In this document: positions 2,365-22,184 of the stretch, in pieces
Position numbering within the stretch: position 1 is the stretch's first letter
How the letters are laid out: every line of letters starts with the position of its first letter
IMG/VR virus record: IMGVR_UViG_3300030117_005706
Span: 1-64,000 of that record
Direction: 5' to 3' (one strand)
Length of the DNA: 64,000 nucleotides
From: a virus
Made by a program: the position numbers and the translations under genes
Notes under the pieces: generated by a model
The model's input: only the letters and a program-made list of their open reading frames with translations
Databases searched by the model: none
What the model was told of the DNA's origin: nothing

Positions 2365-3960
2365 ATGTCGTTACCAGTTCGTTTGATGTTTGGCGATAAT
2401 CGCTTCACCATACCTGTTCAGGCTGAGGAGATTACTATGGCAGTGCATCGTAAGTTACACGCTTTTCCAGTGCCGTTTACGAACTCTCAGCGAATAGGCA
2501 TTGATACTAACATGGCTACTTTACAGATGAACATGTCACTCATATTGGAGGATGACAGGGGCACCTTTGATTCGACTGGGCGCCCTCTTCAAAGCATTCT
2601 CTCGTTTGCATCATATCCTACAGACAAGGTTGTTCATCATTATGAGCCGTCTGATTTGCGATTTACCTCTTTTGGAAATTATGCAGCGGGTGCTACAAGT
2701 ATATCGATTGCTATTCCAAGAAGCAATGTGTTGCAAGCGATGATTGATGCAGGTTCCGCTACAGCGATTTTTGATAACTTTGGTCAGGTTGCAACAAAGG
2801 CAGCGAGTGAAAACATAAAAACGAGCACGGTTGGTAGCGTGTACAGGTTTGACCTGACACTCACTGGGGGTGGGCTTACACGTGCACTCAAGACAGGTGA
2901 TTTGATTGTCGTCAAATCGACACCATTTGCAAGCAAGATTGTATTCATCCCTGTTGCATCGGCAACAAACGACACTGGGCACATTATCAAATTAGTTATG
3001 GATGGCTCGACTACTTCAAACCGTGCAGGCGGTTCAGGTACTGCAAGCGTACGGTCAGGTCATAATTTGATAGAGAACGGAGATGTCATTATTGACGTGC
3101 CAGTTGGAGGCATCGACACAAACCCTGACAATGGTAACCCTGCTCAGACCATCGCACTCGTTGTAAAAGATGCTTTGGAACTGACGACGAACATCACGAA
3201 TCTTTCAGAAGGGGTCGATACCGTCGGGGGTAAGCGTGTGACCGACGTCGCTGACGTCGCTGTTTCTCCAAACAATGATGCCGTGCTTCTCGTTACGCAA
3301 AAGTTTACTAATCAAGATTTTACTTTTGCTTACAACGTGATAGGTCGTCACGACACACTAACTGACACGAGAACGGCCATTGCCAATACGAAGGCAAGAA
3401 GCAATTTGATGAGTGCAGGTGACAAAGCACAAACACTCATGGGGCTTTTTGCAAACGCTGACAACTCAGGTGATTTACTGAGAGGTATTCAAATCCCGTA
3501 TGATTCCCTCATCCAGTCGGATGCAGTCACACCCGAAGTTCGCAATTTCTTTACGACCTACGGGCGCAAAGCCAAGGCATCTCAAAAGACATCCGAAGCA
3601 AATATACTACCTTCTTCACAGCCCATGTTATCACCATCAGCCACTTCAAAAACTGGTTCAGACGTTTTAGGTGAGGCCGAAGAGTCAGGCGATACGAACT
3701 TACTTGACGAGGCGTTAGGGGCAGCGGAGGATGCTGTTGAGTTCGTACTCGATACTATTGGTTTGGGCAACTTGTATGACGGCTTCAAAGAAATTGCAAC
3801 GGGCATTGGAGATGCACTGACAGGAGAAGCATCTGACCGAGCGGGAATAAATGGTATTTACGTGTTGCCTGAAAACTTTCATTTACGCAAGGAGGCTGCC
3901 TTGAACTACTACGTGGCCGACCTTGATTTGATTATGGTTCACAAAGTGGCAGGTGTTTGA
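2365..3960 (+). CDS. tail/baseplate structural protein, paralog 2
   Basis: A 531-residue protein with a clear ATG start and GAGGTG just upstream. It shares with the previous protein an N-terminal block (LPVRLMF, then HRKLHAFPVPFT and DTNMAT) and a later block (GIQIPYDSL, then RNFFTTYG). The centre differs and is rich in Thr, Asp and beta-strand pattern. A C-terminal acidic, helical region (about residues 430-500) precedes a short hydrophobic end. Two adjacent paralogs before a giant adhesin-like protein fit a baseplate or distal-tail role. No enzymatic motif is seen. It overlaps the giant gene by 8 bases. Confidence 0.7.
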   Translation: MSLPVRLMFGDNRFTIPVQAEEITMAVHRKLHAFPVPFTNSQRIGIDTNMATLQMNMSLILEDDRGTFDSTGRPLQSILSFASYPTDKVVHHYEPSDLRFTSFGNYAAGATSISIAIPRSNVLQAMIDAGSATAIFDNFGQVATKAASENIKTSTVGSVYRFDLTLTGGGLTRALKTGDLIVVKSTPFASKIVFIPVASATNDTGHIIKLVMDGSTTSNRAGGSGTASVRSGHNLIENGDVIIDVPVGGIDTNPDNGNPAQTIALVVKDALELTTNITNLSEGVDTVGGKRVTDVADVAVSPNNDAVLLVTQKFTNQDFTFAYNVIGRHDTLTDTRTAIANTKARSNLMSAGDKAQTLMGLFANADNSGDLLRGIQIPYDSLIQSDAVTPEVRNFFTTYGRKAKASQKTSEANILPSSQPMLSPSATSKTGSDVLGEAEESGDTNLLDEALGAAEDAVEFVLDTIGLGNLYDGFKEIATGIGDALTGEASDRAGINGIYVLPENFHLRKEAALNYYVADLDLIMVHKVAGV

Positions 3961-6900
3961 TTTGGTTGTATCAGCGGATTCCACACATGCTATGCGATTC
4001 AATGGGATTTCCGATGCGGTCATCATCCCAATGCAAAGTTTCTCACAGAACGCAGGTAATTTACAATCAGGGGTACCAACAAGTGAGATGAGTATACCAA
4101 CCATACTCGACTCATTTACATTTGAATCGTGGATTATTCCCGACTCAGGTGGTATTGTTTGGGAATATGAACACGTTATGCGACTTGTAGTGGGCGCTCC
4201 ATCAAGTAGTGCACCTGCAAGTTTCCAAGTGAAATTGCGAAGCAAAAGCACAGGGAACGAAAATACTTTCACACTTAGTAGCGCAACCGCTGTGACGAAG
4301 CCTGACGGGACAGTTTCTCATTACGACGGAGTGCTTTACCCTCGTGCAGCACTTGATTTGCACAACTCTTATGATGCACTGGATGGCAGTAAGTCTGACA
4401 ATGCTGCCGTGCATGATGGGCACCGAGAACTGTTGCAGGTAGCCATTGTTTTCGACAAGCGTCATCTTTCATTACGAATAAACGGAGACGTCGTCGCTAC
4501 CAAAACATTGGACTCGGACCACGAACTTGTTCTTTATCCCACACAAATTTTCGTCGGAGGACAAGGAGGCGAATTCCGTGGCACTATTGAGACCATACAC
4601 TGGGCACGAGGTGCACTTGATAGCAGCATCGACCCACACGCACCAGTGTCCACAGATTCAACTCTCGGCCTTTGGCGGTTTGAAGAACCAGTCGAGCCAA
4701 TTTCGACGATTCTTACATTGCCTTCACTTTCGGCATCCACATCGGCTAACTCAGCCATCACAATCGGAACGACAGAAGCCCAATCCCTCATCGATACACT
4801 AACAGGTAAGAGTGGGATTACTTCGCTTGATTTAACATCTACGACTTATTCAGCAGGTAACTATACAGTGACAAAGAACGCAGCCAACTCAGAAAGTACA
4901 ATTACGATTCCACAAGTATCTTTTAACTTACTTATCAATCCACTCGGCTACAATCGCACCACAGGTGTTGCGAATAGAGAGGCACCTGAACGTGTGCGCC
5001 TTACAAACGTCGATGCAAGTGCAGGTACAATCACAGTTGAGAGTATACATCTTGACTTTGTCTCAAATACAACAAACGGGCGACGTGGGCTGCTCATGGC
5101 ACACAGTGCGAGTGATGCAGTGATTGTCATCGGTGACTGTCTTGTTGATAGCGGAACTGGCAACCAAGGTGTGGGTACAGGCACTCAGTTTTCAAACAGG
5201 CAAGGCCAAGTCGTTATTGACGAAAGTAGTTTTGAAAACCACGGAATTGTATTTTCGACACGCATGGCAATAGCCGATGACCCATACATGAAGTTTTCAG
5301 CAACAACAAACATGGGCACTGCATTCACAGCAGGTCACACAGGTCGACACATACTCAATCATGTCAAGAGTCACCCTTACATCGGTATGCTACCACGCCC
5401 AATTAATTCAGAAGTCGAGCAAAACATAGACGGCTCAGCGTCTGTTATGACGGCTACGTTTGGCCCACAGTATGCAAACGTGCGTGATGCTGCGCCTGCA
5501 AACTCGGTTGTTTCATTCTATGATGTTACAGGTCCATTTTCGGTTATGTCCACGCGCTTCACTGATACGCCTACACAAGTCGTTGAAAACGGAATGGCGG
5601 GTATATCCGATACCAAGCGAGGGTTGTTAGCAATTGGTGGACTGTTTGATGTGTCTCCATTTTTGTTGCGTTCAGGGCCTGATTCGATTCCCGAAGACAA
5701 TAGCGACGAACACATTCGTCACATGACTCCCTCAAAAGAAACGAGGACGGCTATACTAGAAGTTCCGTCTCTTGCTACATACAATCGACCTACACTCGTT
5801 CAAGTCAAATACAACGCAGTTGACATTACTGGGCGTGGCATCAAACACGCTGCGACTGCACGACTAACGACAGGGATTGGCGGTAGCGGAACTGTGTTGA
5901 CGTTTCCTTCGGTCAAGCAATTTGGTGCTAACGGTCAAAAAATACCTGCTGACTTTATTTCTATAGACGGAGAGGTTGCGGGGGTGAACTCAATTGTTGC
6001 AACAATCAACCACAGTGCGAACACTCTTACATTCGGGTCCGCAGCCACATCAGCATTCCAAACAGCAGCAACTGCCAATGCTATCGTCAATGTACATCTC
6101 AATGGAGGGGCTTTACTTGTTGAAAGCACATATCCTGATGTAGCCGAAGAAGTTACCTCAGGTACACGAATCATTGATTTGATTCATACAGACGTGGAAG
6201 CAGGCACTGCTCAACTTCACTCGGCAGGTGGGGTAATTCGTATGGTCAGCAACAGTCAGATGTTGTTCAAAGAAGGCGAATTGAACGGCGATGATGAAGA
6301 GGGCTATCAAACAGAACGTGCCCTTGACTTTTCGATGTGTCCTGACAATTATCTTCCTCTTCACAGTACAGACTCGGCGCAACTCAACCCACGTCGTATT
6401 TTTTCGCCTCGTGCAAGTGATACTACTCGTGATTCTGTATTCAATCGAATTGTCATTACACCGTCAGGTAACACCAGTGATAACTTTGATGTCGATACAG
6501 ATGGTTATCTTGTGCAAGGTAAACAAGGTGCTGTACGCAAAAGCACAGGCGTCTTTGTCAACAATGGTAGCGGTCACGCAGCGGGGACAACGACGATTAC
6601 TGTGGATGGTGCCAACGCTACAAATTTCTTTGCAGCAGGTACAAATGTGTACAGCCTTGACGGTGTTTTGCTCGGTGCAGTAAACAGTTCAACAAGCACG
6701 TCAATTACATTAGCAGCAGGTAGCACACAGGCTGTTGTTGACAACGAAGAGTTGTTTTACCAACCACGCAAGAGTGCAATTGGTACAGTTTCACAAAGTA
6801 GTGCTGTTCACGAGGTGTTTGACATTATATCGCACCGAACCGACAGGAACTTTGTTGAATTTGTTGTACAACCGTCAGACCGTAATCGATTCACACAACT

Positions 6901-9900
6901 GGCTAAGTTGTTTACAACTGGTGATGGAACACTCGTGCGAGCCAACCAGTTTGAGATTCACTATCTCATGGGACGAGGACGTGCGCTCACAATGTCTGAC
7001 GGTGACGCAGGTACGTCTATTCTCCGAGCACACGGGCTTGGGGCTGACATGGCTGCGAACTCAATTAGCGTCAAGGGCGACGGAGCACCTGATTCATTCG
7101 TCGTCAAAGAAACAATGCCCGGTTCGCCCGTTGTTACGGTAACACTCGGAGGTGCAGGTCAGGGTGCTATTAACACAAAGCCAACCTACAACCCTTCACC
7201 AACTGCTCGTCTCGGTTGGTCGACACGAAGAGACTGTTCAGTCAGAGTGTCGGCAACTACCAGTACGAAGGTTACGGTTGTGCCTCTCAATAACAAATCA
7301 TCAGCCCTTGCATCTTGGGGAACGTATTGCTTCCCGAAAGTTGGCCGAATATATTTTGCAGTTCCTGTGGAGTCAGGTGATAGTGCGACGAAGTATGCCT
7401 CAGCCGAATACACCAGCAAAGACGGAACGCAGTTCACGTTCTCTTCGGGAACGGGTCATACTGGTAGTGGTAAGTTTGTACTTACTGATGGGTCTGAAAG
7501 CGATTCTCTCAGTGCTTGGCTAACCGCAACTGGACTGAAAGTTGGGTCAACCGTTGAGGTGGACGACCAGTTCAACGAAGGCTCAATGTGCAACGATGGG
7601 ACAACCATCAATGACCGACTGTTCCAAACACTTGACACAGTTCAACACGATTACCAACTAGGCACTCAATACGCAAGTACACGAGCGATGGTTGAGATTC
7701 CCCTCTTTGACGATTTTTTCTTTGAAAACGAGGACGAGGGAATCTTCCCCGGACCTGACAACAGTATGAAGTTGCATCTTGACCCAACGTATGCTGCTCC
7801 GACATGGGCACCTAATCCTGTCGGACGGCGGGCACCGTCTATTGCGCCGGAAGACCCGACAGTCAACAGCGCATTTTCGACATCAATCAAGACAAATTCA
7901 CATCGTCGAGGCACTGTGATTAGTCAGCCATATGACTCGGCTAACCGACGCATTTATGTTCAAGATTACAAAGTCTTCCCGATTGCTACGGCTGCACCTG
8001 CTACAGTTGCATCAATTGATGGTGCACTCCGTTTCCGTCGGGCGTTTCTACCATCAGGTGAATGGGTGCTGTATGACGTCCGTAACACAAGTGGCTATCT
8101 TGAAGTAGCGGGTAGCACGACGGCTGACGACAACTGGGCGTTCAGCAAGAACTTCTTGCAAGAACTGTCAGTCGGTGTTTCAATCATTCCCGCATCGGGC
8201 TTCCAAGATATGAATTATCCTTCGATTGCTGACAACCCGTTGGTAGATAGTGCAGGGTTTGAATCTCGGCGACCTTACTATTTTGACCGTGCTAACGTCA
8301 TGACACAGGGGGGTAACGTAGACTATGGTATGAAGCAATATGTTAGTGCTGTCGAGTTCCGTGCAGGTCCTCGTGCAAATCCGCATCTTAAGCGTATCAA
8401 GAATAAACGTGCTCGTTCTACGAACAATCAGGCGTATCTTTCCAGTACACTGTTTTTGACTGACATAAGCGACTTTCCAAAGAGCAATGCACATGCATCG
8501 AATTACAAATACAGAATCGCTTGGTGGAATGGGACAGTGTACAAATTTGCTCACTACGATACAATCAACACTACAACAGGTGCGATGGTATTGAACAACA
8601 TTGACTCAGGTTTCACTCCACAAATTGGAGATGAAATTATCCTATGGGACATGCATGCGCCTTCGGGCATTTATCCTGAGGTTAAGGAAGATGCGTTTTT
8701 GAATACGACTTGGGCAAACCCATACTGTAACGGCGGACTGCGAGCAGGTGATACAATTTGGATGAACATGCACTACACAAACCCTCACGCAGTCGAGGGG
8801 CTGTTCTGTAAAAGTCGAGGGACGCTCAACGAGGCTGAGGTTTGGAGTGGATTCTTAGAGGGTGAAGGTGACTTTGCTACGACGCCACGTGAAAGTATAG
8901 CCATGGAGAACTTCTTGATTGGTAATTCGTGTATCGAAACCGCACGTAACTTCGTTCAGCACGTCAACAAAACGATTGAACTAAACTACGAAGCGCTGGG
9001 ATTGAGTGCGACGAATGCACCTACTGTTGCATACATAGACCCCTATCAATCGACTGAGGAACATGCACGTGTATTGTTGTACGACGTGGCGCACGACCGT
9101 GAATTTATTGCGTTCCAAGACCTTTGGATGCAAGTACAATCGAGTCCGCAGGCTGCGACCATCGGTAATGAACCAACATCAGCGGGCACAATCAACAATC
9201 AATCGACGGGAGCAGGTACAGGGCTTGATGTTGCTAACGGCTTCCCTTCACAGAATAAATCGCTTGCATCAACCACGCCATCCGAGTTTATGGAAGCAGC
9301 CATGGCACACAAGTCGACATGGAATTTGAATGTGGCACTTGGTACGCATGCAACTGGCTATCACGGACACACACCTAGTGACCCTGACCTCGTAGGAATA
9401 CAAATTCGCACAAACCCTGCCGTATCGTCAACCAAAGATGATTTAGCCAATGATGAACATCAGCAAATCAATGTATCAACGACTGAAAACTCGACGTTCT
9501 TTGACACACCTGATGGGACACGATGCATTCCAGTATTCTTAGCACTCAAAGGTATTCGTACAACGTCACTTGATTTGTCGACGCACGAAGAATCTCGCTT
9601 GCAGCATTTGCCTCACTGGTCTGACATGGACTTTGTTCGACGGCTTACGATTGACTTTGGCGAGATTGGAATGAAGGACGGCATTCGCAATATCGAGGCT
9701 GCTGCTCGTGAGATTGTTCGTCTGATAAATCAAGCAGGCGCACCCAATGGGCGAACACATGCACGAAAGCCTGCTGACCAATACTTTGGTGAAAGTGAAC
9801 GGTTTGCTTTGTCACGCGTAGCAAATCAGGCTGACGTGACAAATGGTATCATTGACCCTACGGCTGCTCATCTCAACGCAGGTTTTGCTGCTACTGGAAG

Positions 9901-12900
9901 TACACACGACCCTTCGCCATTTTGGGACAGGGAGAGAGCGTTTGCATCTCATGACCGTGGTACACATATGGGTTACATGCGTGCTCACCTTGGTCGAGTT
10001 GTAGCAGACTCAGGAGGTAAGCCCGGATTCAGTATCATTATTCACAGCACGATACCCGGTGCGTCAGGACGTAACTTCTGTGTATGGCTCGACAATGCAC
10101 GTGGTCAGTTATCTTATCGACCGCAGTTTTTGATTGGTCATGGTGGACGATTCCGTAACTATTGGTGTCAGCCTGACGAAATGACGGGCGAAAACATGCA
10201 CCCTGCGCCTATGCCAATCAATAGATTCGGTCGTCCCTTTGCACCAATCACCACGCTCAAAGAATATCTTCCACCCGATGAAGTAAATGAGCCATTCCGA
10301 AACAACCTTGAGTTCGGACCTGAGACTACAGGTACATCAAGTAACATGGCTTCATCAACTAGCGAAATCGCATCAGGTCGCAACTCTAACACAATCATTG
10401 ACGAATCGTTTGAGGCGAAAAGCCCCGCCTCTCAACTCATCGACGGATTGCGTATTGGCACACCTGCACGTGCTCGCATTAACTTCGGCGGTTTGACACA
10501 GGCAGGCATACCCGGTTGGGCACCTGACGCAGGCAACTGGGGCTTTGGCCGTGACCAACAAGATACTCGATTTGAGCACATTTACGGTAACAACGTCGCT
10601 GCATTTGCACAGCATGGAACAGTTGATGCGACATCGACTGGCGGTTACATACCTGATGAGCAATTGAGAACAGACAACATAGGCGACGGTCAACTGTATG
10701 GTATTCGATTCATCGACCATCGTGGTAAAAATCACACCATCCGTATGGTATATCGACAGCATGGTCAACCATTTGCAAACGATTTGACTGTACTACCGTC
10801 AACGCTTGACGATGAAACTGTCATACACTTTGATGACCGTGATGTAGGGCAAGGCGGATTCACGATTGGTAAGCACATGTTTGGCGAGGGTGATGTGTGT
10901 GGAGAGTTTACAGCAGGCACGAAAAAGAAATTTAAGGGTAATCTATGGAACAATTATCCGTCACCTGCGAGTGGTATATCAGCGACTGTTCAGGTAGTCA
11001 CAGTAAGTGGTGCTGATGCTCTTAAGATTACATTTACAGCCCCATACGATACAAGTAGTACGCTGAATCACCCTGACATCTTGGGTTATCTTGGATTCCC
11101 TGAAAAAGGTGTGATTCAACTGAATGACGTTGCGGGTACAGGTAATAGCGGTGAGCCACTCTATTATCAAAGTCGCTCACATCATGGCAAAGCAGGCTCG
11201 TCAGGAGTACACTACTTGTACAATGTTGAAGGTAACACGTCAGCGTATGGTTCAGGTGTCACACGAATCATCTGTCCACGCATGACGTTTACATCAGTAT
11301 TGACGGACGAGGTCATGGCTGCCGCAGTTGAGTTTGCTTTGACCATGGACGACCCAAATAGCGAAAACGTGGACAAGACTACGTTTGACTGTACACACAT
11401 GCTTGCACCTGACGGTCGCACGCTCGGTGAATGGGGTGTATCTCCTACAGCCATTCGTGTCAAATCACATTCAGCATCCAAGCGCATCATTCCACTACGA
11501 AAATTGTTTGAGGTCAGTCGTGAGAAAGACTGGGGATTCCAAGCGGGAGCATCTGTTCAAGCAACAGGTACTGACCACTTGGGCGGCTTGTCGTCTACCG
11601 AGATTGAAGATGGAACACGACTCGATGTTGGCTACATTCCAAAGACTGTGCTTCACATTACTACCAAATATCGAGGTACAAATGCAAACACGGCAACACC
11701 TGTTCTTGTCGATAGTGCGAACAATGTTGTTGATACAATCGATTGGAAACAAAACCTACGAGGCAACACGTTCTATAGAACAGAAGGCGACCGTGTTATA
11801 CCATGCGTCAACAGCCCTATGGTTAATGTCAATTCTAAAACAAGCACGACTATCACATTACCTTCAAGCCAATATCTGTATCTCATTACTACACCTGCGT
11901 CGACTGATACAGACAGTTGGGCTGAGAAAATTACGGTATGGCTTGGTAGCGAAGAATCAGGTATTGTATCAAGTAAACCCGGCGCAACATCAACATCTGT
12001 TCTTGAGTATGTTGCTGATTCAGCGCAGTGGAGTGGTACAATCGCAGCCAATAACATCCTCGTGAGGCAAGGTTCTATAGAGTATTCTTCGGAAGTTGGA
12101 GGTATACGCCGAGCAGGTAGTCATCACGGCGAGCCGTTCTTGCACTTCCGAGGCGCACACGATAGCCCTGACCACTGGGTGCCGCTGTACTTTGGTGGTG
12201 GATTTTCAGGTGTAACGCTCGATGTCAATGACGGTACACAAAACGACTACAGTGAGTTTTATGAACACCCATACTCAGGCGGACCGACAGGTTCGGCTGG
12301 ATTACAAAACGTTGGTGAGATAGCAGGCTCATACGCTTTGCTTGATGCAAACGCTATGCTTGCTATGTTCCCCGGAACACCGTATCTTGACCAACATGAA
12401 GGTCGCAACAGTATGCCATTCTTCAATCAAGATGCCATGCTGTCATTTGATTTAGATGCTGGTAATAGCACAAACGCTTCAAGCACTGGTGTGACGTACA
12501 CGGACAGTTCAACCACTGTTCGCTGTCAGCGACCAAGTCCAATTGTTCTCCGATTTTCACACCCACACGCTCGTTACACTGCGACGGGTGACGCTACTGA
12601 CCACACAACATACATGATTTTTGGACCCGGTCAAAGCGTACCTCACAACTTTGCAGCACACGAACCGCAACTATCCAGCATCGTTACCGGTGGTAACGGC
12701 TACAGCGGTGTGCCAACTGGCAAGAATTTACCTAATGAGATTGCACACGGTGCAGCCAGTCGCAATGGATTTAGTGCTCACTTGCCACCCACTGCTGAAT
12801 ATCAGAAAGGTAACGTACAAGGCTACAATTACGTCATGAATTGGGAGCCGTCAAAAGGCCATCCAAACAGCACTGGATTTGCTCAGACAGCAGGGCAAGG

Positions 12901-15900
12901 GTTGTTTTACGACACTCAGTTCACTGCAACGAATCCACCTGCTCATGCACACCCGATGTCGTATGTGTTTACCGACTTTGCAGGCGTCTCGATGGGTGCA
13001 GCAGGTCTTGCTACCACACTTGCACGTTCGTGTGTATGGCACATGGACGGTGGCTATCACCCCGGCGGTCACTTCCTTGACAATCACATCGAGCGTAACC
13101 CAAAGCATCCAATATCAAATAGTCGCATTGCAGGCGGCTCAGATGCTCAACAAAACCCAACAGTATTCCGTGTGTCGTCTTTGTTAGGAACTGCTTACTT
13201 AGGTACGTTTGGAGGCGAAACAGACATGACAAGCAACTCAGACTACGTTGTCATTGATGCTACACGCGCACAAAACGCTGAGGAACTTGCTGCCATTGTT
13301 TCAGCGGGTGTTAATACATTCCCCGGAACGGACCCATTGAAAGCCATAGGCGGAACATTTTTGCCTTCGTTCCAAACCGCAGCCAAGCAAGATAGGTATG
13401 GGTGGGTTGAACTTGTCATGAATGCAAATGGGTACACAGAACAGGGTGGTGCAGCCGCTACACTACAAGCAACTGCTGCTATACCTACGACGTTACCGCA
13501 GTATGGTTGGCTGCGAGTGACTGACGGTGCCGCTATCAATGGGTTTGCTTCCTATTCATCTTACACAAGTTCGACGTTCACGCTGGCTAAGAATCTGACA
13601 ACGACGACAAACATTGTCGACCCAACAACAAAGACTGCAATTGTGGCTGCACCTCTTAACTCGCTTCCCGGTGGCGCTGTCAAGATTTACGTATGGACTA
13701 AAGCGGGTGCACATCGCTACAACAACACAAGCCAATCTCGTGACCATATGACACAAGTTCACTACAGTGGTTACATCGATGCTGTTGACCGAACTAAGCC
13801 AATTGGAGCAGTCGGCTGGTCAGGAGAAGCGTATTCGTATCTAAACTCGTACAATGGCACTCAAATTGGTAGCACCAAATTCCCTGCGGGCAAAGGTGCA
13901 TGGCATCCGTTCCTTGGATTCAATCCATACGGAGCAGCCGAATCCTGTTTGTCAGGTAGTTCACCCGTTGGTGCTGATTCAATGCCTGCCAGTGTGTATC
14001 AACAGTCGTGCGAAGTTGGCTTAGCCTCACGTCACTTGATTGCTATCACGCACGAAAGTGAGATGCCTTTGATTGCAAAGGCTGACCGTGATGGTATTTT
14101 GTGTGCAGGTGATTGGCTTGACCTCAAGCGAAGCGGCACTCTCGCTAATGCAGGTACAACGCAATGGGACACTGCAAAGGTACACAACCGTGACCGATAC
14201 GTTGGTCCCGCTACAGCAGGCCCGCACGTTGAAGCGATGATGTTGGCCGATGTAAGTTCTTACCCACAAACAGCCTCGTACCCTGCTGTTGGCACGGAAA
14301 CGTACTGGCACAGTCGTGTTACATCAGCAGCACACATTGAGCGTGCTGACCCGTGTCAAAGCCCTACTGGTGATTTGTTTTGGGACGAGTCAAAGGTTAC
14401 TGCGAGTCAGTTCCACGAAGATACTGCCACATACGGCGTGACTTGTCAAGGTATTACATCACTGACACAATACAGTGCTACAGGCACTGGCATTTACAAA
14501 TTCTACAAAACACAACACCCTGCTCGTAACTTCAACGAAGAACACGTTGTATGGAAGCGTATGGACGGCGGTAACCTTACCATGCCTGCGGTCAACGCAC
14601 GGGGTCTTGGTATGGTACCGTGGGTCTATAGAAAGGATGGCGGAGCCTACAAGAAGGTCGGTGAGAAGATACTTGGAAACAATCGATTTTCGTTTGAAAC
14701 AACGAATGGTGCAATGTTCCCAATCATTCAGGCACAGGAGTTATCACACCCGCAACTGGCTGAACAGAATCAATTTGCTACAAAGGTAGAAGATGCACTG
14801 CTCATTCCAAACGAAGAGATTCAGTTCCAAAGCCTACAGGTCGTTGACGATACTGGGCAAGAGCACAGAATTGCAGGTGGCAGTCCACTCGGAACAGTCA
14901 TTCTCGATTTTAGGCATCTAAGCGATAGAGAAATAGAAGGCTTATCACCTGCACTTGCAGGCTCAGGCATCTCGCCTAATTTGAAAATCCGACTTCCTGA
15001 CCCTGATGACATTCCGGGTAACATCATTGTACGACCAAGTTTTGACCGCATACAAGGCTATCAGAACGAAACGATGGGTAGCGGCGGTATGCAACATCCA
15101 TCACAACCTCAACAAGCGATTACGGATATGTTCAGTAATGCAAAGCCCGGACCACGTGCTTGGCCTACGTGGGAGAATAACGGATGGGAGCACCTAAGCC
15201 AAGATGGTACCGACATCTCTACAACAAAGAGTGCAACACGACTCGGCTCTCCTGACTCTTCTGTCGAGGGTTGGTCTGACCACACAAACAACAATCCGCT
15301 TGAGACAGCATACGAGCCACATGACCGTTCATTGCAATTCCACATCACACGCATGGGCGTAACAATGACGCATCGTGACGACGTCGATGAACTGACATTC
15401 ACTTCCTTGTCAGGCACTGACATCAATGTAGGTTCGACGCCTGAGGACGCTGTATGGAAGGTCACCAGTGAACAAAGCGGTGGTCGTTGGTTCTTGCGAG
15501 TCTACGACCCGACGACAAACAAAGGTGTTATTGCATCCTATACTAATACGGGGTCAAGTAAATTTACTGGTGTGGTTGTATCTCCTGACTTTGTATCGTT
15601 TGTCACAGGTAAGACTGGTCTCAAAGTTGTACCTTCTTACTACATGCCTGCGGGTAGCACTCGTTTCTTTGCATCACGTCGATTGCGTGACCATAGCGAG
15701 TACAGTGGCTCAAGCCCTGACATGCCAAACATCGACTGGTCAAGCATTACTACGACTCCTTACACACAATTGACTGCACCAAAGATGACGCCTATGCCAA
15801 TCCCTCGTATGGGCCATCATTACGTCACTCCAACAATGGCATTACTACCCGGTCATTACGCTCACCCTGCCTATCAACGAATGTATGATTTACACCTTGC

Positions 15901-18900
15901 TTGTCGAAGCGCATCAAATAAGCCGTTTGAAGATGCTTACTTGGGCGATAGCGAAGTAGTCAGCAACGCACCGGGGCGTGACCCGCTTGTATGGTTCAGC
16001 GGACCAACGGCTGCGTTTGCACCATCTGATATTCACGGTGGTGCGTTTACGCTCATGACCGAGACGAAGGTCAAGTACGATGGTTATGGTATCGCTGCAT
16101 CGAACGGTTCGGCAGGGACAACCAATTCACAAGGCGGACATTCAATTGTGTTGGAAGCAGCGGGAACGTACACGCTTGACAACCACTTCCCTGACCCAAT
16201 GGAAGTCGGGGCGTATCAGATTATCATTCAGCCGAACGTGTTCTCACAACAGATTACTGGTTACCATCTCAATCACAGTGATGCAACCAAAGCCCCATCC
16301 GAGTCAGGTACGAAGGTAACTGAATTAACAGGGCAACAAGTCAACACTGTCATCGCCATAGAGCATGACAAATCTAACCTTGGTGCAATGACGCTTGTCC
16401 TTGCCGAAGCAACGATGGCCGATGTAAGAGGTTGTGAAATCATCATCAACGAAGTCATACTTGACTTGGAACCTGATGCGGGAAGTCAATTCACCAACAT
16501 ACCTACACTGGGATTGTATAATCCGCTTGGCGTTGATGAAACTGCTTCACCTGCGTTCACACGCCGTAGTCTACCATACCGACCGAACATGTTCATTCAA
16601 ACAACACCGGGTATGACTACAACAGTACCATGGTGGGCGCAGTTGCACAAAGATGGTGCACGTAACAGTGCGGCTGACGAGTTCAAGTTCCTTGAGTGGC
16701 ACACACCGGACCATTACTATCAACTCAATCGACCTGCTTTTGGTGCGGTTGGTGCACAGATTACTCTTGCAGGTTTCTCAACAATCTACCCTGACATCTA
16801 CGGCGAGCACTACCGAGCACGTAGCCTGAACCCAAGTTGTGTTGTGATTTCTTCTGACGCAAGCGCACAGACTGTCACAGTCGACAGCAACGAGTTGTTC
16901 CCTGTCGAGCCGTACTACGGTGAAGTGTTGGAGTATATCGATGCCGATGGTGAGCGCCGTACGGCTACTTACACAAATCGCACAGGCACACTGGCACACG
17001 CTACATTGGCTGCTGCTACGATATTTGAAGGCGTATCGACAGCCAACTTGTTCTTCACCAACCTTACAGCAGGTACAATCCTACGGCTTAGTGGGCCATA
17101 CGATAACAGAAAGGCAGGCGAGGTGTTCAAGGATTCTGAATCAAGCATTGCTACACGCACCCTTGCTCAGACGTTTGCAGGCACACGAGATACCAACTCG
17201 TTGCATACACCTGATGCATTCCTGTGCATGTGGCATCCGAATCTCGGTCGCCCGTATACATACTACTCAGATGACAGCAGTCGTTCGTTCTATAGCGCCA
17301 CAGGTGCAGCCGACTCACCTGTCAACAAGGCATCGCTCAACAACATCCCTGAGCATTTTGAGACAATTCACTACCACGACTTCTTCTATGCAGCGTCAAA
17401 GGGTCCGTTTGCTCTTGGCATGAAGTGGGTTGCTCCACCACATGATGCTGATAACGATGGGGCTACGGCTGACTTCCACGACGGAACGGTATATACCGCT
17501 GCACAAATGGATGCACTTGTTGATGCTTCGGGTACACTCGACCACCAAGGTGGTACGGATGGCTCAGACAAATACAACTTTGCAGGCTACTGGCCGAGTG
17601 GTTCTCGTGGAGGCGCAGGTTCAAGTCGCCTCGACGGATTCCTTGAGGCTGTCATTGGATGGGGCGGTAAGTTGTTTGGTATAGATTGCGTTGGATTCCG
17701 TGACGATAGCGGTATTGAAGAACGCACCTATGCACAGATGACAACCGATTCAGACTATGCACGGAACACATGCTTCGGTTACCGCTTCTCGGTAAGACAG
17801 CCGTACAATCGACCACGATGGTCGCCATACGTGCGGGGTTGGATTGAGGGCACAGGTACAACGAATGCGTTGCTCGGCTACTACCACGGTCCGTTTGTTC
17901 AACAAGATAACAAAACAAACGGCTGGGATTACGTTGGTGCTGACAGCAGTCAATCGGATGCGGACTTCCCTGCTACCTACACTGGTATACTGGAGCGACT
18001 GACGCAAATCAGCGCTATGCTCAACCAAGACCAAATCGGTCGACAGGTACGATACAGCGACGGTCGTCGGATGACGCAGCCGTTTGGTTGCCCTGTCCGA
18101 ACGGTGCGTAATGCGTCGACAGTACGACGCATGTACCCAAACGACCACGCAGGCTTGGGCATTGCTGAACTTGCTCAGGCTCATCGCTTCTACTTAATTG
18201 ACTGGTGGGGCAACACACGTGGTGAAGACGTGCGTCGATTCCCAGTGCGTGGATTCGGTATTCGGCCTGCGTGGGACCCTGAGGATGCTTACGCCGACAC
18301 GAACGTCGCACATCGACCTGCTGCGAACAGCCTGTTTGGTGGTGACGGCACTGACCGCTACAGTGGTAACGCCAACAACGACAACAACGCATCTTCAAAC
18401 ATGGGCACTGCGGACTGGTTTAACCCTGTCAGTGCTATGCGAGTGGGTGACCGTGGTGACGGGCGTGGTGTCCGTTGGCCTACACACTTCAACGAGAGTC
18501 TGTTGGCCGATGTATCTGAAACAGTTGAGCCATCAGGTTTGGTTGTTTCACAACCTACCGCTGAGCCAACTGTAGGAAAGGGATTGATTCGTCCACGAAA
18601 CGACGTACTGCAAACAGACGAAGTCGAACGTGGTATCAGCAATCGACTTGGTCTTGCCGACGAAGATGGATTGCTCAAGCCGACCGCTATGGTCAGCGAA
18701 GGAGTTGAGTCAGTAACTGCTAACTCGCTGTTGGCCGAGCCTGTTGGTGGTGACGGTGTGCGTGCAGGGCTTGACGTTGATACTCTTGGCGAACTGAATG
18801 ATGGTATCAGCCGTGAGTACGTCATCATGAGCACAGAAGCACACAGCCTGCACACTGACCGTGAGGTCGGACAACGTACGACACTGCGTGGAGCACTCAA

Positions 18901-19876
18901 CATTGGTAGTCAGACACTTGGACATCTTGACATGACATCGCTCTCTTGGAGTGGACAGCCTGTCAAGGGTGTGCTGCGTGTATCGAACGCTCACGCATTT
19001 TGGGCGCTCGGTGGCACATACGTGATGGATTGGTCGGTGCGAGAAGGTGTGCTGTCCGACTTCGGCTGGGGCGCAACTGCTGCGGCTGACTCGACCAACC
19101 CGTATCAGGATGCGAACCATTCGCCAAAGGTTGACCGTACGAACAACACGGACAGTACAATTGAGTTCTTACTGCGTCCGGTCATGACACTTGACAAGTC
19201 ACACATCCAAATGTTCCGACACAACCCTGTCGTGACAGGCAGTACACCGCAGGCCAGTCCGAACTTTTATGCAGCCACAGGTGGCTGTAAGTATGGCTTC
19301 TATGTCAGTGACGCACCGTCAGCCCGTACAGGTACGCCTTCGTCGCCTCCGTACAAGCCAGTGCACGGAATTAACCCAGCGATTACTTCAAGCGGTGTGC
19401 TTATCAACAATGGAGGAGGCTATTCCGCAGGCACTACAGGTGCCATGACAGTAGACACGGTAAGCGCTACGGTACACTTTGCTGTGGGCGACCGTGTATA
19501 CAATAGTTCCAGTGTACTGATAGGCACGGTCACAGCAGTAGCGACTACGTCCGTTACCATAGGAGCAGGTACTATCGTTTCTGTTGCTAACAATGATGCT
19601 CTTTACAAGAGCGACATCAAGACATCATCAAGTGACGGTCCGAAGATTCTCGGTGTCGACGTCACAGGATATACGAAGACCGATGTAACACAGCCAGTCG
19701 CCCGTATCGTCATGAGTGAGAACACGCTTGAGCACTTCCGTAGTGATGCGCCTCGTCGATTGGCTGAGGACGGTGAGTCTGACTTCTCAGTCCAGCCACG
19801 TCACAGCCAAACCCTGCACCCGAAGGGCAGTTCGGGCGATACGTCTTTTAACACGGGCGACCACAGTGGAGAGTGA
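3953..19876 (+). CDS. giant LamG-containing tail fibre/adhesin-like protein (5,307 aa)
   Basis: One uninterrupted frame of 15.9 kb, a quarter of the window. Residues about 20-245 look like a concanavalin/LamG-type beta-sandwich: ESWIIPDSGG and WEYEH early, VGGQGG and FRGTIE..HWARGALD late. The remainder is rich in Gly, Ser, Thr, Asn and aromatic residues, has few Cys and no obvious transmembrane segment. A domain of about 75 residues occurs near residue 865 and again near residue 5,145, with the pattern NGG.GY.AGTT then VY then G.V. The position among tail genes suggests a receptor-binding or tail-fibre role, or a very large baseplate protein; this is inference. The GTG start overlaps the upstream gene. 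TTG at 3962, placed after GGTG, is an alternative. Confidence 0.85.
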   Translation: MFDLVVSADSTHAMRFNGISDAVIIPMQSFSQNAGNLQSGVPTSEMSIPTILDSFTFESWIIPDSGGIVWEYEHVMRLVVGAPSSSAPASFQVKLRSKSTGNENTFTLSSATAVTKPDGTVSHYDGVLYPRAALDLHNSYDALDGSKSDNAAVHDGHRELLQVAIVFDKRHLSLRINGDVVATKTLDSDHELVLYPTQIFVGGQGGEFRGTIETIHWARGALDSSIDPHAPVSTDSTLGLWRFEEPVEPISTILTLPSLSASTSANSAITIGTTEAQSLIDTLTGKSGITSLDLTSTTYSAGNYTVTKNAANSESTITIPQVSFNLLINPLGYNRTTGVANREAPERVRLTNVDASAGTITVESIHLDFVSNTTNGRRGLLMAHSASDAVIVIGDCLVDSGTGNQGVGTGTQFSNRQGQVVIDESSFENHGIVFSTRMAIADDPYMKFSATTNMGTAFTAGHTGRHILNHVKSHPYIGMLPRPINSEVEQNIDGSASVMTATFGPQYANVRDAAPANSVVSFYDVTGPFSVMSTRFTDTPTQVVENGMAGISDTKRGLLAIGGLFDVSPFLLRSGPDSIPEDNSDEHIRHMTPSKETRTAILEVPSLATYNRPTLVQVKYNAVDITGRGIKHAATARLTTGIGGSGTVLTFPSVKQFGANGQKIPADFISIDGEVAGVNSIVATINHSANTLTFGSAATSAFQTAATANAIVNVHLNGGALLVESTYPDVAEEVTSGTRIIDLIHTDVEAGTAQLHSAGGVIRMVSNSQMLFKEGELNGDDEEGYQTERALDFSMCPDNYLPLHSTDSAQLNPRRIFSPRASDTTRDSVFNRIVITPSGNTSDNFDVDTDGYLVQGKQGAVRKSTGVFVNNGSGHAAGTTTITVDGANATNFFAAGTNVYSLDGVLLGAVNSSTSTSITLAAGSTQAVVDNEELFYQPRKSAIGTVSQSSAVHEVFDIISHRTDRNFVEFVVQPSDRNRFTQLAKLFTTGDGTLVRANQFEIHYLMGRGRALTMSDGDAGTSILRAHGLGADMAANSISVKGDGAPDSFVVKETMPGSPVVTVTLGGAGQGAINTKPTYNPSPTARLGWSTRRDCSVRVSATTSTKVTVVPLNNKSSALASWGTYCFPKVGRIYFAVPVESGDSATKYASAEYTSKDGTQFTFSSGTGHTGSGKFVLTDGSESDSLSAWLTATGLKVGSTVEVDDQFNEGSMCNDGTTINDRLFQTLDTVQHDYQLGTQYASTRAMVEIPLFDDFFFENEDEGIFPGPDNSMKLHLDPTYAAPTWAPNPVGRRAPSIAPEDPTVNSAFSTSIKTNSHRRGTVISQPYDSANRRIYVQDYKVFPIATAAPATVASIDGALRFRRAFLPSGEWVLYDVRNTSGYLEVAGSTTADDNWAFSKNFLQELSVGVSIIPASGFQDMNYPSIADNPLVDSAGFESRRPYYFDRANVMTQGGNVDYGMKQYVSAVEFRAGPRANPHLKRIKNKRARSTNNQAYLSSTLFLTDISDFPKSNAHASNYKYRIAWWNGTVYKFAHYDTINTTTGAMVLNNIDSGFTPQIGDEIILWDMHAPSGIYPEVKEDAFLNTTWANPYCNGGLRAGDTIWMNMHYTNPHAVEGLFCKSRGTLNEAEVWSGFLEGEGDFATTPRESIAMENFLIGNSCIETARNFVQHVNKTIELNYEALGLSATNAPTVAYIDPYQSTEEHARVLLYDVAHDREFIAFQDLWMQVQSSPQAATIGNEPTSAGTINNQSTGAGTGLDVANGFPSQNKSLASTTPSEFMEAAMAHKSTWNLNVALGTHATGYHGHTPSDPDLVGIQIRTNPAVSSTKDDLANDEHQQINVSTTENSTFFDTPDGTRCIPVFLALKGIRTTSLDLSTHEESRLQHLPHWSDMDFVRRLTIDFGEIGMKDGIRNIEAAAREIVRLINQAGAPNGRTHARKPADQYFGESERFALSRVANQADVTNGIIDPTAAHLNAGFAATGSTHDPSPFWDRERAFASHDRGTHMGYMRAHLGRVVADSGGKPGFSIIIHSTIPGASGRNFCVWLDNARGQLSYRPQFLIGHGGRFRNYWCQPDEMTGENMHPAPMPINRFGRPFAPITTLKEYLPPDEVNEPFRNNLEFGPETTGTSSNMASSTSEIASGRNSNTIIDESFEAKSPASQLIDGLRIGTPARARINFGGLTQAGIPGWAPDAGNWGFGRDQQDTRFEHIYGNNVAAFAQHGTVDATSTGGYIPDEQLRTDNIGDGQLYGIRFIDHRGKNHTIRMVYRQHGQPFANDLTVLPSTLDDETVIHFDDRDVGQGGFTIGKHMFGEGDVCGEFTAGTKKKFKGNLWNNYPSPASGISATVQVVTVSGADALKITFTAPYDTSSTLNHPDILGYLGFPEKGVIQLNDVAGTGNSGEPLYYQSRSHHGKAGSSGVHYLYNVEGNTSAYGSGVTRIICPRMTFTSVLTDEVMAAAVEFALTMDDPNSENVDKTTFDCTHMLAPDGRTLGEWGVSPTAIRVKSHSASKRIIPLRKLFEVSREKDWGFQAGASVQATGTDHLGGLSSTEIEDGTRLDVGYIPKTVLHITTKYRGTNANTATPVLVDSANNVVDTIDWKQNLRGNTFYRTEGDRVIPCVNSPMVNVNSKTSTTITLPSSQYLYLITTPASTDTDSWAEKITVWLGSEESGIVSSKPGATSTSVLEYVADSAQWSGTIAANNILVRQGSIEYSSEVGGIRRAGSHHGEPFLHFRGAHDSPDHWVPLYFGGGFSGVTLDVNDGTQNDYSEFYEHPYSGGPTGSAGLQNVGEIAGSYALLDANAMLAMFPGTPYLDQHEGRNSMPFFNQDAMLSFDLDAGNSTNASSTGVTYTDSSTTVRCQRPSPIVLRFSHPHARYTATGDATDHTTYMIFGPGQSVPHNFAAHEPQLSSIVTGGNGYSGVPTGKNLPNEIAHGAASRNGFSAHLPPTAEYQKGNVQGYNYVMNWEPSKGHPNSTGFAQTAGQGLFYDTQFTATNPPAHAHPMSYVFTDFAGVSMGAAGLATTLARSCVWHMDGGYHPGGHFLDNHIERNPKHPISNSRIAGGSDAQQNPTVFRVSSLLGTAYLGTFGGETDMTSNSDYVVIDATRAQNAEELAAIVSAGVNTFPGTDPLKAIGGTFLPSFQTAAKQDRYGWVELVMNANGYTEQGGAAATLQATAAIPTTLPQYGWLRVTDGAAINGFASYSSYTSSTFTLAKNLTTTTNIVDPTTKTAIVAAPLNSLPGGAVKIYVWTKAGAHRYNNTSQSRDHMTQVHYSGYIDAVDRTKPIGAVGWSGEAYSYLNSYNGTQIGSTKFPAGKGAWHPFLGFNPYGAAESCLSGSSPVGADSMPASVYQQSCEVGLASRHLIAITHESEMPLIAKADRDGILCAGDWLDLKRSGTLANAGTTQWDTAKVHNRDRYVGPATAGPHVEAMMLADVSSYPQTASYPAVGTETYWHSRVTSAAHIERADPCQSPTGDLFWDESKVTASQFHEDTATYGVTCQGITSLTQYSATGTGIYKFYKTQHPARNFNEEHVVWKRMDGGNLTMPAVNARGLGMVPWVYRKDGGAYKKVGEKILGNNRFSFETTNGAMFPIIQAQELSHPQLAEQNQFATKVEDALLIPNEEIQFQSLQVVDDTGQEHRIAGGSPLGTVILDFRHLSDREIEGLSPALAGSGISPNLKIRLPDPDDIPGNIIVRPSFDRIQGYQNETMGSGGMQHPSQPQQAITDMFSNAKPGPRAWPTWENNGWEHLSQDGTDISTTKSATRLGSPDSSVEGWSDHTNNNPLETAYEPHDRSLQFHITRMGVTMTHRDDVDELTFTSLSGTDINVGSTPEDAVWKVTSEQSGGRWFLRVYDPTTNKGVIASYTNTGSSKFTGVVVSPDFVSFVTGKTGLKVVPSYYMPAGSTRFFASRRLRDHSEYSGSSPDMPNIDWSSITTTPYTQLTAPKMTPMPIPRMGHHYVTPTMALLPGHYAHPAYQRMYDLHLACRSASNKPFEDAYLGDSEVVSNAPGRDPLVWFSGPTAAFAPSDIHGGAFTLMTETKVKYDGYGIAASNGSAGTTNSQGGHSIVLEAAGTYTLDNHFPDPMEVGAYQIIIQPNVFSQQITGYHLNHSDATKAPSESGTKVTELTGQQVNTVIAIEHDKSNLGAMTLVLAEATMADVRGCEIIINEVILDLEPDAGSQFTNIPTLGLYNPLGVDETASPAFTRRSLPYRPNMFIQTTPGMTTTVPWWAQLHKDGARNSAADEFKFLEWHTPDHYYQLNRPAFGAVGAQITLAGFSTIYPDIYGEHYRARSLNPSCVVISSDASAQTVTVDSNELFPVEPYYGEVLEYIDADGERRTATYTNRTGTLAHATLAAATIFEGVSTANLFFTNLTAGTILRLSGPYDNRKAGEVFKDSESSIATRTLAQTFAGTRDTNSLHTPDAFLCMWHPNLGRPYTYYSDDSSRSFYSATGAADSPVNKASLNNIPEHFETIHYHDFFYAASKGPFALGMKWVAPPHDADNDGATADFHDGTVYTAAQMDALVDASGTLDHQGGTDGSDKYNFAGYWPSGSRGGAGSSRLDGFLEAVIGWGGKLFGIDCVGFRDDSGIEERTYAQMTTDSDYARNTCFGYRFSVRQPYNRPRWSPYVRGWIEGTGTTNALLGYYHGPFVQQDNKTNGWDYVGADSSQSDADFPATYTGILERLTQISAMLNQDQIGRQVRYSDGRRMTQPFGCPVRTVRNASTVRRMYPNDHAGLGIAELAQAHRFYLIDWWGNTRGEDVRRFPVRGFGIRPAWDPEDAYADTNVAHRPAANSLFGGDGTDRYSGNANNDNNASSNMGTADWFNPVSAMRVGDRGDGRGVRWPTHFNESLLADVSETVEPSGLVVSQPTAEPTVGKGLIRPRNDVLQTDEVERGISNRLGLADEDGLLKPTAMVSEGVESVTANSLLAEPVGGDGVRAGLDVDTLGELNDGISREYVIMSTEAHSLHTDREVGQRTTLRGALNIGSQTLGHLDMTSLSWSGQPVKGVLRVSNAHAFWALGGTYVMDWSVREGVLSDFGWGATAAADSTNPYQDANHSPKVDRTNNTDSTIEFLLRPVMTLDKSHIQMFRHNPVVTGSTPQASPNFYAATGGCKYGFYVSDAPSARTGTPSSPPYKPVHGINPAITSSGVLINNGGGYSAGTTGAMTVDTVSATVHFAVGDRVYNSSSVLIGTVTAVATTSVTIGAGTIVSVANNDALYKSDIKTSSSDGPKILGVDVTGYTKTDVTQPVARIVMSENTLEHFRSDAPRRLAEDGESDFSVQPRHSQTLHPKGSSGDTSFNTGDHSGE

Positions 19877-19880
19877 TAGC

Positions 19881-20450
19881 ATGACACCGATGGATGAGGC
19901 TTGGCTTATTCTCAAAACCAGTCGGCAAATGAAGTTGTACAATTACATAGAAGACTATCCCGGTATGGCTCCAGTGACCGCCTATCGAGGAGTTCCTTTT
20001 TTGAGTACACGACCGCGTGACATATCCACACACAGTCAAAAGCGTAATAACCCTGTAGATATGAATACTATGGGTACGTTTTGGGCTGAACAAGGTACGA
20101 ACGAACCTCATGCGACTGCGTCAACCTTTGGTATTAGGGGGGCGGAAGAAGGGCGACCTGCGCTTTCACGTGTTCGTGTGCTTGGACACAGAGGTCCGTT
20201 AGAAAGTAGTGGTAAAGTTCAGCGAAGAACGGGAGTATGGAACCCTACAAATGATGCGTTTTTGGACGAGGCAATTCTTTCTCATAACAAACCACTTGAT
20301 TTAGAAAACTTAGTCATCTCTTTGCCATCAGAAAGTGAAACATTTGGCATGACTGGGGATGAATATGTAAATTGGGTTACTGAGCAAAAAAAGTTACGTC
20401 CGGGTTCTTATACTGATGTTGAACCTGATTTGTTATTGGAGGACAATTAG
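19881..20450 (+). CDS. DxAWxxLK-tagged protein, possibly ADP-ribosyltransferase-like
   Basis: A 189-residue protein beginning MTPMDEAWLILK, the same short N-terminal motif found in the proteins at 62,110, 62,918 and 63,183. After the tag come AYRGVPF and GTFWAEQ..... ATASTFG. A YRG strand followed by a GxFW..(x)n..A..F segment is loosely like R-S-E type ADP-ribosyltransferase folds, but the catalytic Glu motif is not certain, so this is a weak guess. The start at 19,881 has GGAGAGTGATAGC directly before it and follows the giant gene's stop by 4 bases. The longer frame back to 19,716 lies inside the giant gene and is rejected. It is probably a virion protein. Confidence 0.7.
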   Translation: MTPMDEAWLILKTSRQMKLYNYIEDYPGMAPVTAYRGVPFLSTRPRDISTHSQKRNNPVDMNTMGTFWAEQGTNEPHATASTFGIRGAEEGRPALSRVRVLGHRGPLESSGKVQRRTGVWNPTNDAFLDEAILSHNKPLDLENLVISLPSESETFGMTGDEYVNWVTEQKKLRPGSYTDVEPDLLLEDN

Positions 20451-21851
20451 ATGGCTGACGCATACAACAGAACGACAGGGCGATTTAGCGAAGCCCAATC
20501 AACTGTCATGAAGCGTGTTCGCAAGCCATCGTTTGTCGACAACGCTGTGCGCCACGCTACATACGTGTCGTCGGCTACCAAGCGTGTAGCAGGTTCACCT
20601 GTGCGTACAGACTTTGAGTCGTCGACCGACAAGACCTACACACTATCAGAAGAGGACGACACCATCCGAATCGAACACACCTCATCGGGTGGGAACAGAT
20701 TTAGGGGCGGTGTCTTTCATGGAGACGACCAGTTCGACGCTTCGTCGACTGTTCCATCGCTGTTCGTTAATGTTGACGACAGTAAACAACGCCTCGCACC
20801 ACATTCTATAGAAACAGCAACGAAAGGCACACGCATTCGCCTCAACAATCTCAAGGGTCGCAGCCTGATTGACATGGGATTCGACGGCAAGCGTTTGCAA
20901 ATCGCACAACCAGTAGCCGTCGGCCTTCGGACGAGTGATTTGGCTGAACGAATCGTCACTGAGGGTAGGAAAACACTCTCAGGTTTCCGTATTTCGGCAC
21001 CAAGCAACGTGTTTGTGGCAAAGAATATCAACAATGTGGATGCTTTGACTGCTTTGCGGTACTTAGCAAGGCACGATGGGTTCATGACAAAGGCTGATTC
21101 GCACGGAATGGTCAGTTATGTGCACCAATTACGTGGCAATCGGTCAGTTTACATCCATCAAGACATGGTCTCTGACGGTATTACAGAAGAAAACATGGAT
21201 GCAGCCCCGAATAGAGTCACTGTACGAGGAAAACGACGTGCAAACAACGATGATAACATCATTCAGGTCGACGATATTGAGTCTCAGAAGGATGGAGTGC
21301 GTGAAGTGCAGGGTGGTATCTTCGCACCGACAGCAAACAACCGCAATGCGACGAAAAACATCGGTCGAAAGTTCTTGGCTACCGCAAAACGTGCGAAAGG
21401 TGCCAAAATGCTGACGGGAACCATCAATTCGATGGCTGTGCGTGCTGGTGACATCGTTTCGTTCCAAGATATTGGCGAAAAGACTCAAGATATTGTTCTA
21501 CGAGTGCGTCACAACCTCACTGAGCGTCGTTCTGACATCAAAGTGTCATCGATTGAGGGTAGTTTGGAAGATTTGATACAACGAGCGCAAGAAGGTGACA
21601 TTTCTTCGATGTTTGACGACGGTCAAGAGGAAAAGCAGCAGGTCAAAGAGAAAAATTACGCTGTCAGCGCTACAATGACCGTCAAAACCACTTGGGTCAT
21701 CGCTGCAAGGCAAGTTCGACCCGAAGGGATGATAATTGGGCACCCTACAAGGGGATTGATTAAAGGAGATGGCTCAGTAGCCGAAGCAGACAACGCATTG
21801 TTGACGTTAGGGACATCTCAGTCGAAATGGATAGTAAAGGGGAATGGTTGA
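20451..21851 (+). CDS. probable baseplate hub / tail late-control-like protein
   Basis: A 466-residue protein. The middle has features usual in tail hub proteins of the gp27/gpD type: ALRYLARHDGF, then NRVTVRGKRR, then AGDIVSF and VLRVRHNL with an alternating SDIKVSS strand. In those families these mark a hub domain that forms the tail-tip ring. The C-terminus (about residues 375-466) is more variable. The gene starts one base after the previous stop with GGAGG upstream, and it is followed directly by two fibre-like genes, which supports a baseplate position. The family assignment is by pattern only. Another baseplate component is the main alternative. Confidence 0.55.
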   Translation: MADAYNRTTGRFSEAQSTVMKRVRKPSFVDNAVRHATYVSSATKRVAGSPVRTDFESSTDKTYTLSEEDDTIRIEHTSSGGNRFRGGVFHGDDQFDASSTVPSLFVNVDDSKQRLAPHSIETATKGTRIRLNNLKGRSLIDMGFDGKRLQIAQPVAVGLRTSDLAERIVTEGRKTLSGFRISAPSNVFVAKNINNVDALTALRYLARHDGFMTKADSHGMVSYVHQLRGNRSVYIHQDMVSDGITEENMDAAPNRVTVRGKRRANNDDNIIQVDDIESQKDGVREVQGGIFAPTANNRNATKNIGRKFLATAKRAKGAKMLTGTINSMAVRAGDIVSFQDIGEKTQDIVLRVRHNLTERRSDIKVSSIEGSLEDLIQRAQEGDISSMFDDGQEEKQQVKEKNYAVSATMTVKTTWVIAARQVRPEGMIIGHPTRGLIKGDGSVAEADNALLTLGTSQSKWIVKGNG

Positions 21852-22184
21852 ATGCCGTTATTAACATCAGGACATCGATTTGTAGTGGACAAGTTGGCTG
21901 AGGAGATTACACAGGTGGTCTTTGGCTTTGACGGAGGTATTGCCACCAGTGAAGATGGTGGAGCAGGTCGCCCAGCCGTAACAGTCACGCCAGTTGTCCG
22001 TATTGTCGACGACAACACCATATCGGTTGAGGCTAAACTCACAACCACTGATTCATTCGCCTTACCTCTCCGAGAGGTATGTATTCGCTCGGCTGACCGA
22101 GCATTGTTTCGATACACGTACGACGCAATTACCAAGTCAACCGACACGGAACTAATATTCTCAACAATCATCGAGGTGAACTAA
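21852..22184 (+). CDS. small tail-fibre-associated protein
   Basis: A 110-residue protein directly following the hub-like gene (TGA then ATG) with GGGG upstream. Beta-rich and non-repetitive, with the phrases LTSGHRFVVDKL and FALPLREVCIRS..RALFRYTYD. Short proteins of this type often sit just before the fibre gene in tailed phages and describe a baseplate-fibre connector; that role is inferred. No catalytic motif is seen. Confidence 0.6.
   Translation: MPLLTSGHRFVVDKLAEEITQVVFGFDGGIATSEDGGAGRPAVTVTPVVRIVDDNTISVEAKLTTTDSFALPLREVCIRSADRALFRYTYDAITKSTDTELIFSTIIEVN

Follow-up and report, generated by a model that had tools for sequence, protein, structure and literature searches.

The window analysed here, a stretch of 64,000 nucleotides forming part of a 103,328-bp virus genome record, encodes on its plus strand a single protein of 5,307 residues (3953-19876; hereafter the giant) that is probably a structural protein of the distal virion tail, at the tip or baseplate, with a lectin-like N-terminus and exchangeable surface modules. 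We hold this reading with moderate confidence because of gene order, purifying selection, uniform size, the LamG domain and modules shared with neighbouring genes, and we class the giant as a tail protein that is unusual in both size and architecture. The virus belongs with the magroviruses, which are abundant in the ocean. They have, to our knowledge, no cultured member, and we know of no virion proteomics or image for any of them.

The giant frame starts with GTG, ends in its only stop and encodes a 572-kDa protein of pI 5.4 in which G, T, A and S are abundant; a scan for strongly hydrophobic segments found none. An earlier reading of the letters and frames (the sequence-only reading) had put it at a quarter of the window, and it occupies 24.9%. 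The five remaining frames across this stretch contain 147-396 stops each, and the longest run without a stop in 100 Markov-randomised windows was 292 codons. At its start the gene overlaps the preceding gene, g531, by 8 bases, a similar overlap being common among relatives. Comparison of length with related genomes, as had been proposed, gave 46 full-length loci with unbroken frames of 4,959-5,471 aa, which are minimum lengths for the 22 that reach the end of the fetched stretch. The dN/dS of the giant was 0.06 against two related contigs (5,210 and 5,228 codons), the value for the more distant pair being rough as dS there is near saturation. The sequence-only reading had named one thing that would undo it, an assembly artefact fusing separate genes. 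Split frames do occur in a few relatives (L024, L073, G017, G028), and the ends of the virus record are imperfect repeats. However, the 46 unbroken frames lie on other contigs, and with a dN/dS of 0.06 they refute an artefact, which we regard as practically out of the question. Thus, the single 5,307-residue protein stands as described. Its length had been called exceptional; the stop-free frame is real, but such a size is the norm among magroviruses.

The gene content of the record agrees with published accounts of magroviruses, the tailed viruses that infect marine group II archaea (PMC10768690, PMC12999244). The window includes genes for a family B polymerase (PolB) and a Cpn60/TCP-1 chaperonin of the thermosome type, and the remainder of the record encodes a terminase, a portal, an S78 protease and an SU10-type capsid protein. 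All of these are found in Magrovirales (Aoguangviridae, Apasviridae), whose genomes of about 100 kb (~90-110 kb) are likewise arranged in two modules transcribed in opposite directions (PMC10768690, PMC12999244). That the virus is tailed, as the sequence-only reading had it, is supported, its head genes being those of a tailed virus. Two further observations concern the record itself. Positions 1-645 of the window recur imperfectly, with 26 mismatches, in the final 645 bases of the virus record (L083:19356-20000), pointing to a genome that is circular or terminally redundant and was assembled from a mixture of strains. Between the portal and protease genes lies a frame for a 1,803-aa protein (L083:3061-8472) whose conservation is low, at 35-51% against 84-96% for the capsid protein, and which has a weak DNA-ligase-domain match (E 0.00025).

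The giant lies inside a tail gene block, all on the plus strand, in the order tape measure, g583, g531, giant, a gene of about 189 aa, g466, g110 and fibre. The tape-measure homolog (132-611) has 159 aa in the window, and its homologs in related viruses reach 344-598 aa; several of these carry the tape-measure motif (GGIVTGPTLALIGEAGPEAVIPL-type), and tape-measure PHROGs were matched by all five longer homologs tested. It is followed by the paralogous structural genes g583 (604-2355) and g531 (2365-3960). Directly 3' of the giant is the gene of about 189 aa (19881-20450), a frame called from the sequence that has homologs, then the structural gene g466 (20451-21851) and g110 (21852-22184), which encodes a small protein conserved in relatives. 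Last in this order comes g382 (22186-23334), a probable tail fibre whose relatives span about 380-1,405 aa; among the longer of these, two have matches in tail-fibre PHROGs. Two genes thus lie between the tape measure and the giant and three between the giant and the fibre, which places the giant in the distal-tail block. g583 homologs share a match to a "virion structural protein" PHROG with the giant frames of two relatives (5,557 and 5,684 aa). Sequence searches gave no identity for g583, g531 or g466. By eye, g466 had looked like a tail hub; this idea was dropped for want of profile support, as g466 matched nothing in PHROGs or PDB. The giant itself does not qualify as a tape measure (a long helical protein with a GGxVTGPT..GExGPEAV motif): its helix propensity is low and its N-terminal 1,130 residues are beta-rich.

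Homologs of the giant occur at hundreds of viral loci. A scan of viral contigs with its first 2,000 residues returned 115 related loci, and a profile of its last 1,808 residues returned 357. The 46 full-length relatives align with it across about 4,300-5,230 residues at 44-92% identity. In addition, 18 long contigs were picked by the capsid gene alone. The giant was present in 15, which are all the informative magrovirus contigs; the remaining three end within a few kb of their capsid gene, short of the expected giant start. Giant frames in this set reached 6,362 aa, and two records had split frames. By contrast, tblastn against isolate phages gave no match, and a GTDB scan found no more than three short contigs, all in bacterial MAGs and probably viral sequence that was binned wrongly.

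The dN/dS values point to strong purifying selection on the giant. The capsid protein, compared with the first of the two contigs, gave the same value of 0.06, whereas g531, compared with the second, gave a higher one (0.20). Conservation is uneven along the chain. Residues 1-1000 are the least conserved, 501-1000 especially, and conservation peaks at residues about 2001-2100, 3501-3750 and 4001-4250; the first of these blocks (9953-10252) has the lowest column entropy (0.52 bits). From residue 1001 to the end, about four fifths of the protein, the giant equals or exceeds most structural proteins of the block in conservation. Identity profile, entropy and dN/dS revealed no hypervariable or fast-evolving distal tip.

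The N-terminus (residues about 1-245; 3953-4687) has a LamG/ConA-like lectin fold, as the sequence-only reading had recognised. Laminin_G_3 of Pfam was matched in 6 of 13 relatives (best 48.1 bits, cut-off 27.6); Pfam gave no score for this family in the window's own copy, whose fold comes from structure prediction. AlphaFold2 modelled residues 1-1130 with a pLDDT of 81.8 as almost all-beta, and Foldseek matched the model to LamG/ConA-like folds in the PDB. Residues about 246-1000 (4688-6952), which include the most variable stretch, are also beta-rich. The entire 1,130-residue model aligned with the unnamed viral protein A0A1B1IU10 in BFVD (E 1.3e-83, TM 0.73, 29% identity). Foldseek also listed botulinum neurotoxin binding domains, at about 10% identity and large rmsd; these are explained by the ConA-like jelly roll common to both, and we dismissed them and claim no link to toxins. 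Prediction by segments, which had been proposed as a check, was thus informative at the N-terminus but not further along: the model of residues 1860-2990 was mostly of low confidence, with only about 2170-2732 confident and matching no known fold, and the PDB matches of this second segment were set aside as noise. Searched against Pfam and PHROGs, the window's copy gave nothing below E 0.01, and profiles of its three overlapping thirds found no PDB match at E<=1. Beyond the LamG domain and the inserted modules, sequence searches of Pfam, PHROGs, PDB and isolate phages yielded no known tail protein, nor did they relate the giant to any known protein of the Dit, Tal/J or baseplate kind.

A module of ~75 aa occurs twice in the giant, at residues 865-935 (6545-6757) and 5147-5218 (19391-19606), as located by profile search. 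Of the 46 full-length relatives, 32 share the first copy, which the more distant ones lack. The second is missing even in relatives at 86-92% identity, and it is most similar to copies in other structural genes, the best matches being in one g552 homolog and one g382 homolog. In relatives, six neighbouring structural genes carry the module as well as the giant: it occurs in homolog frames of g466 (36, in many near the C-terminus), g531 (31) and g552 (11), and more rarely of g583 (2), g678 (2) and g382 (1). Within giants, module inserts occupy more than 15 positions across relatives, as placed by a single MAFFT alignment. Further insert families are a ~80-aa GSGY-type, a ~70-aa GMxVSGxGIP-type and a ~140-aa NGHNGKI-type, and in seven loci a lectin-like cassette of ~320 aa sits close to the C-terminus of the giant. 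The profile of the LamG cassette matches g583 homologs as well, in which a LamG domain is inserted. A separate ~320-aa insert at residue about 4493-4512 is present in only some relatives (L012, L025, L030, L048, L068) and is dissimilar to the other insert families. An origin of the giant by tandem duplication was ruled out, the two module copies being its only internal repeats.

Gene order and module sharing suggest that the giant is part of the virion. There, a conserved scaffold, beta-rich for the most part and roughly 4,400-5,000 residues long, would build the tail organelle, and the N-terminal ~1,000 residues, with LamG first and the most variable, would probably face outward and bind archaeal surface glycans; glycan binding by the LamG domain is plausible. 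The small beta-modules and lectin cassettes, common to neighbouring structural genes and inserted at positions of the scaffold, would probably tune weak surface contacts, and primary host specificity would probably reside mainly in the separate fibre gene (22186-23334).

The sequence-only reading had gone further and given the giant a key role in host recognition. As a single adhesin or tail fibre deciding host range, the giant would suit its carbohydrate-binding type of domain, its more variable N-terminal ~1,000 residues and its gain and loss of modules. Yet the whole frame evolves as slowly as the capsid protein, no hypervariable tip is present, and a separate fibre gene of variable length lies nearby. 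Because the core evolves slowly and that fibre gene exists, we consider it unlikely that the giant is the main determinant of specificity, and g382 is the better candidate. Contact with the host remains plausible for the giant and may be part of its role.

Two other accounts take the size of the protein as their starting point. The giant might be a precursor cleaved into several virion proteins, which would fit the uniform conservation of unlike regions and the S78 prohead protease encoded in the genome; prohead-type proteases, however, are known mainly from head proteins, and the frame is unbroken in 46 relatives rather than split into genes. We think this improbable. It is more improbable still that the giant is an internal virion enzyme ejected into the host, in the style of the virion RNA polymerase of ~3,500 residues described for N4-type phages (PMC12633501). 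Some blocks are indeed strongly conserved, but scans for polymerase DxDGD, HExxH and Walker motifs found none, the N-terminus has a lectin fold, and surface-type modules are inserted throughout.

Within the distal-tail reading, the tape-measure lengths raise a more tentative idea. Among the homologs (those of L004, L026, L056, L063 and L081 included), the protein has 136-172 aa in the clade of the window, versus 344-598 aa in more distant relatives. At about 1.5 angstrom of tail length per residue, the shorter proteins predict a tail of about 20-26 nm. The tail tube in this clade might then be very short and the tail dominated by a giant modular tip or baseplate of 5,100-6,400-residue chains, a possibility on which we would not rely. 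If true, it is a virion design without description in the magrovirus literature searched.

The giant protein itself is not described in that literature, in which PMC5332604, PMC10160649 and PMC8651126 were covered by keyword. PMC10160649 places Laminin_G_3 among the auxiliary metabolic genes, with occurrences in four magrovirus groups. This may be the N-terminus of the giant or the LamG domain of g583 homologs, and Laminin_G_3 in magroviruses is probably a virion structural domain rather than a metabolic gene, so that the giant offers a possible correction of the published reading. Should the distal-tail assignment hold, one conserved protein, about 15% of the genome, sets much of the tail and of the first contact with the host. 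The gene can serve as a marker for magroviruses, and it provides a natural system for following surface modules as they jump among virion genes.

Among known systems, the giant resembles siphophage tail-tip and hub proteins of the lambda J and Tal type in lying downstream of the tape-measure gene; it differs from them in its N-terminal LamG domain and in having no sequence match to them, and it is several times larger. With phage tail fibres and receptor-binding proteins it shares a lectin-like domain and module exchange, whereas its conserved core, the absence of a hypervariable tip and the presence of a separate fibre gene set it apart. Finally, although its ~75-aa module matched none of the Pfam Ig families Big_1, Big_2, FN3 and I-set, it recalls the Ig-like domains on phage virion proteins (PMC9022992), which are likewise small modules found in several structural genes at variable positions.
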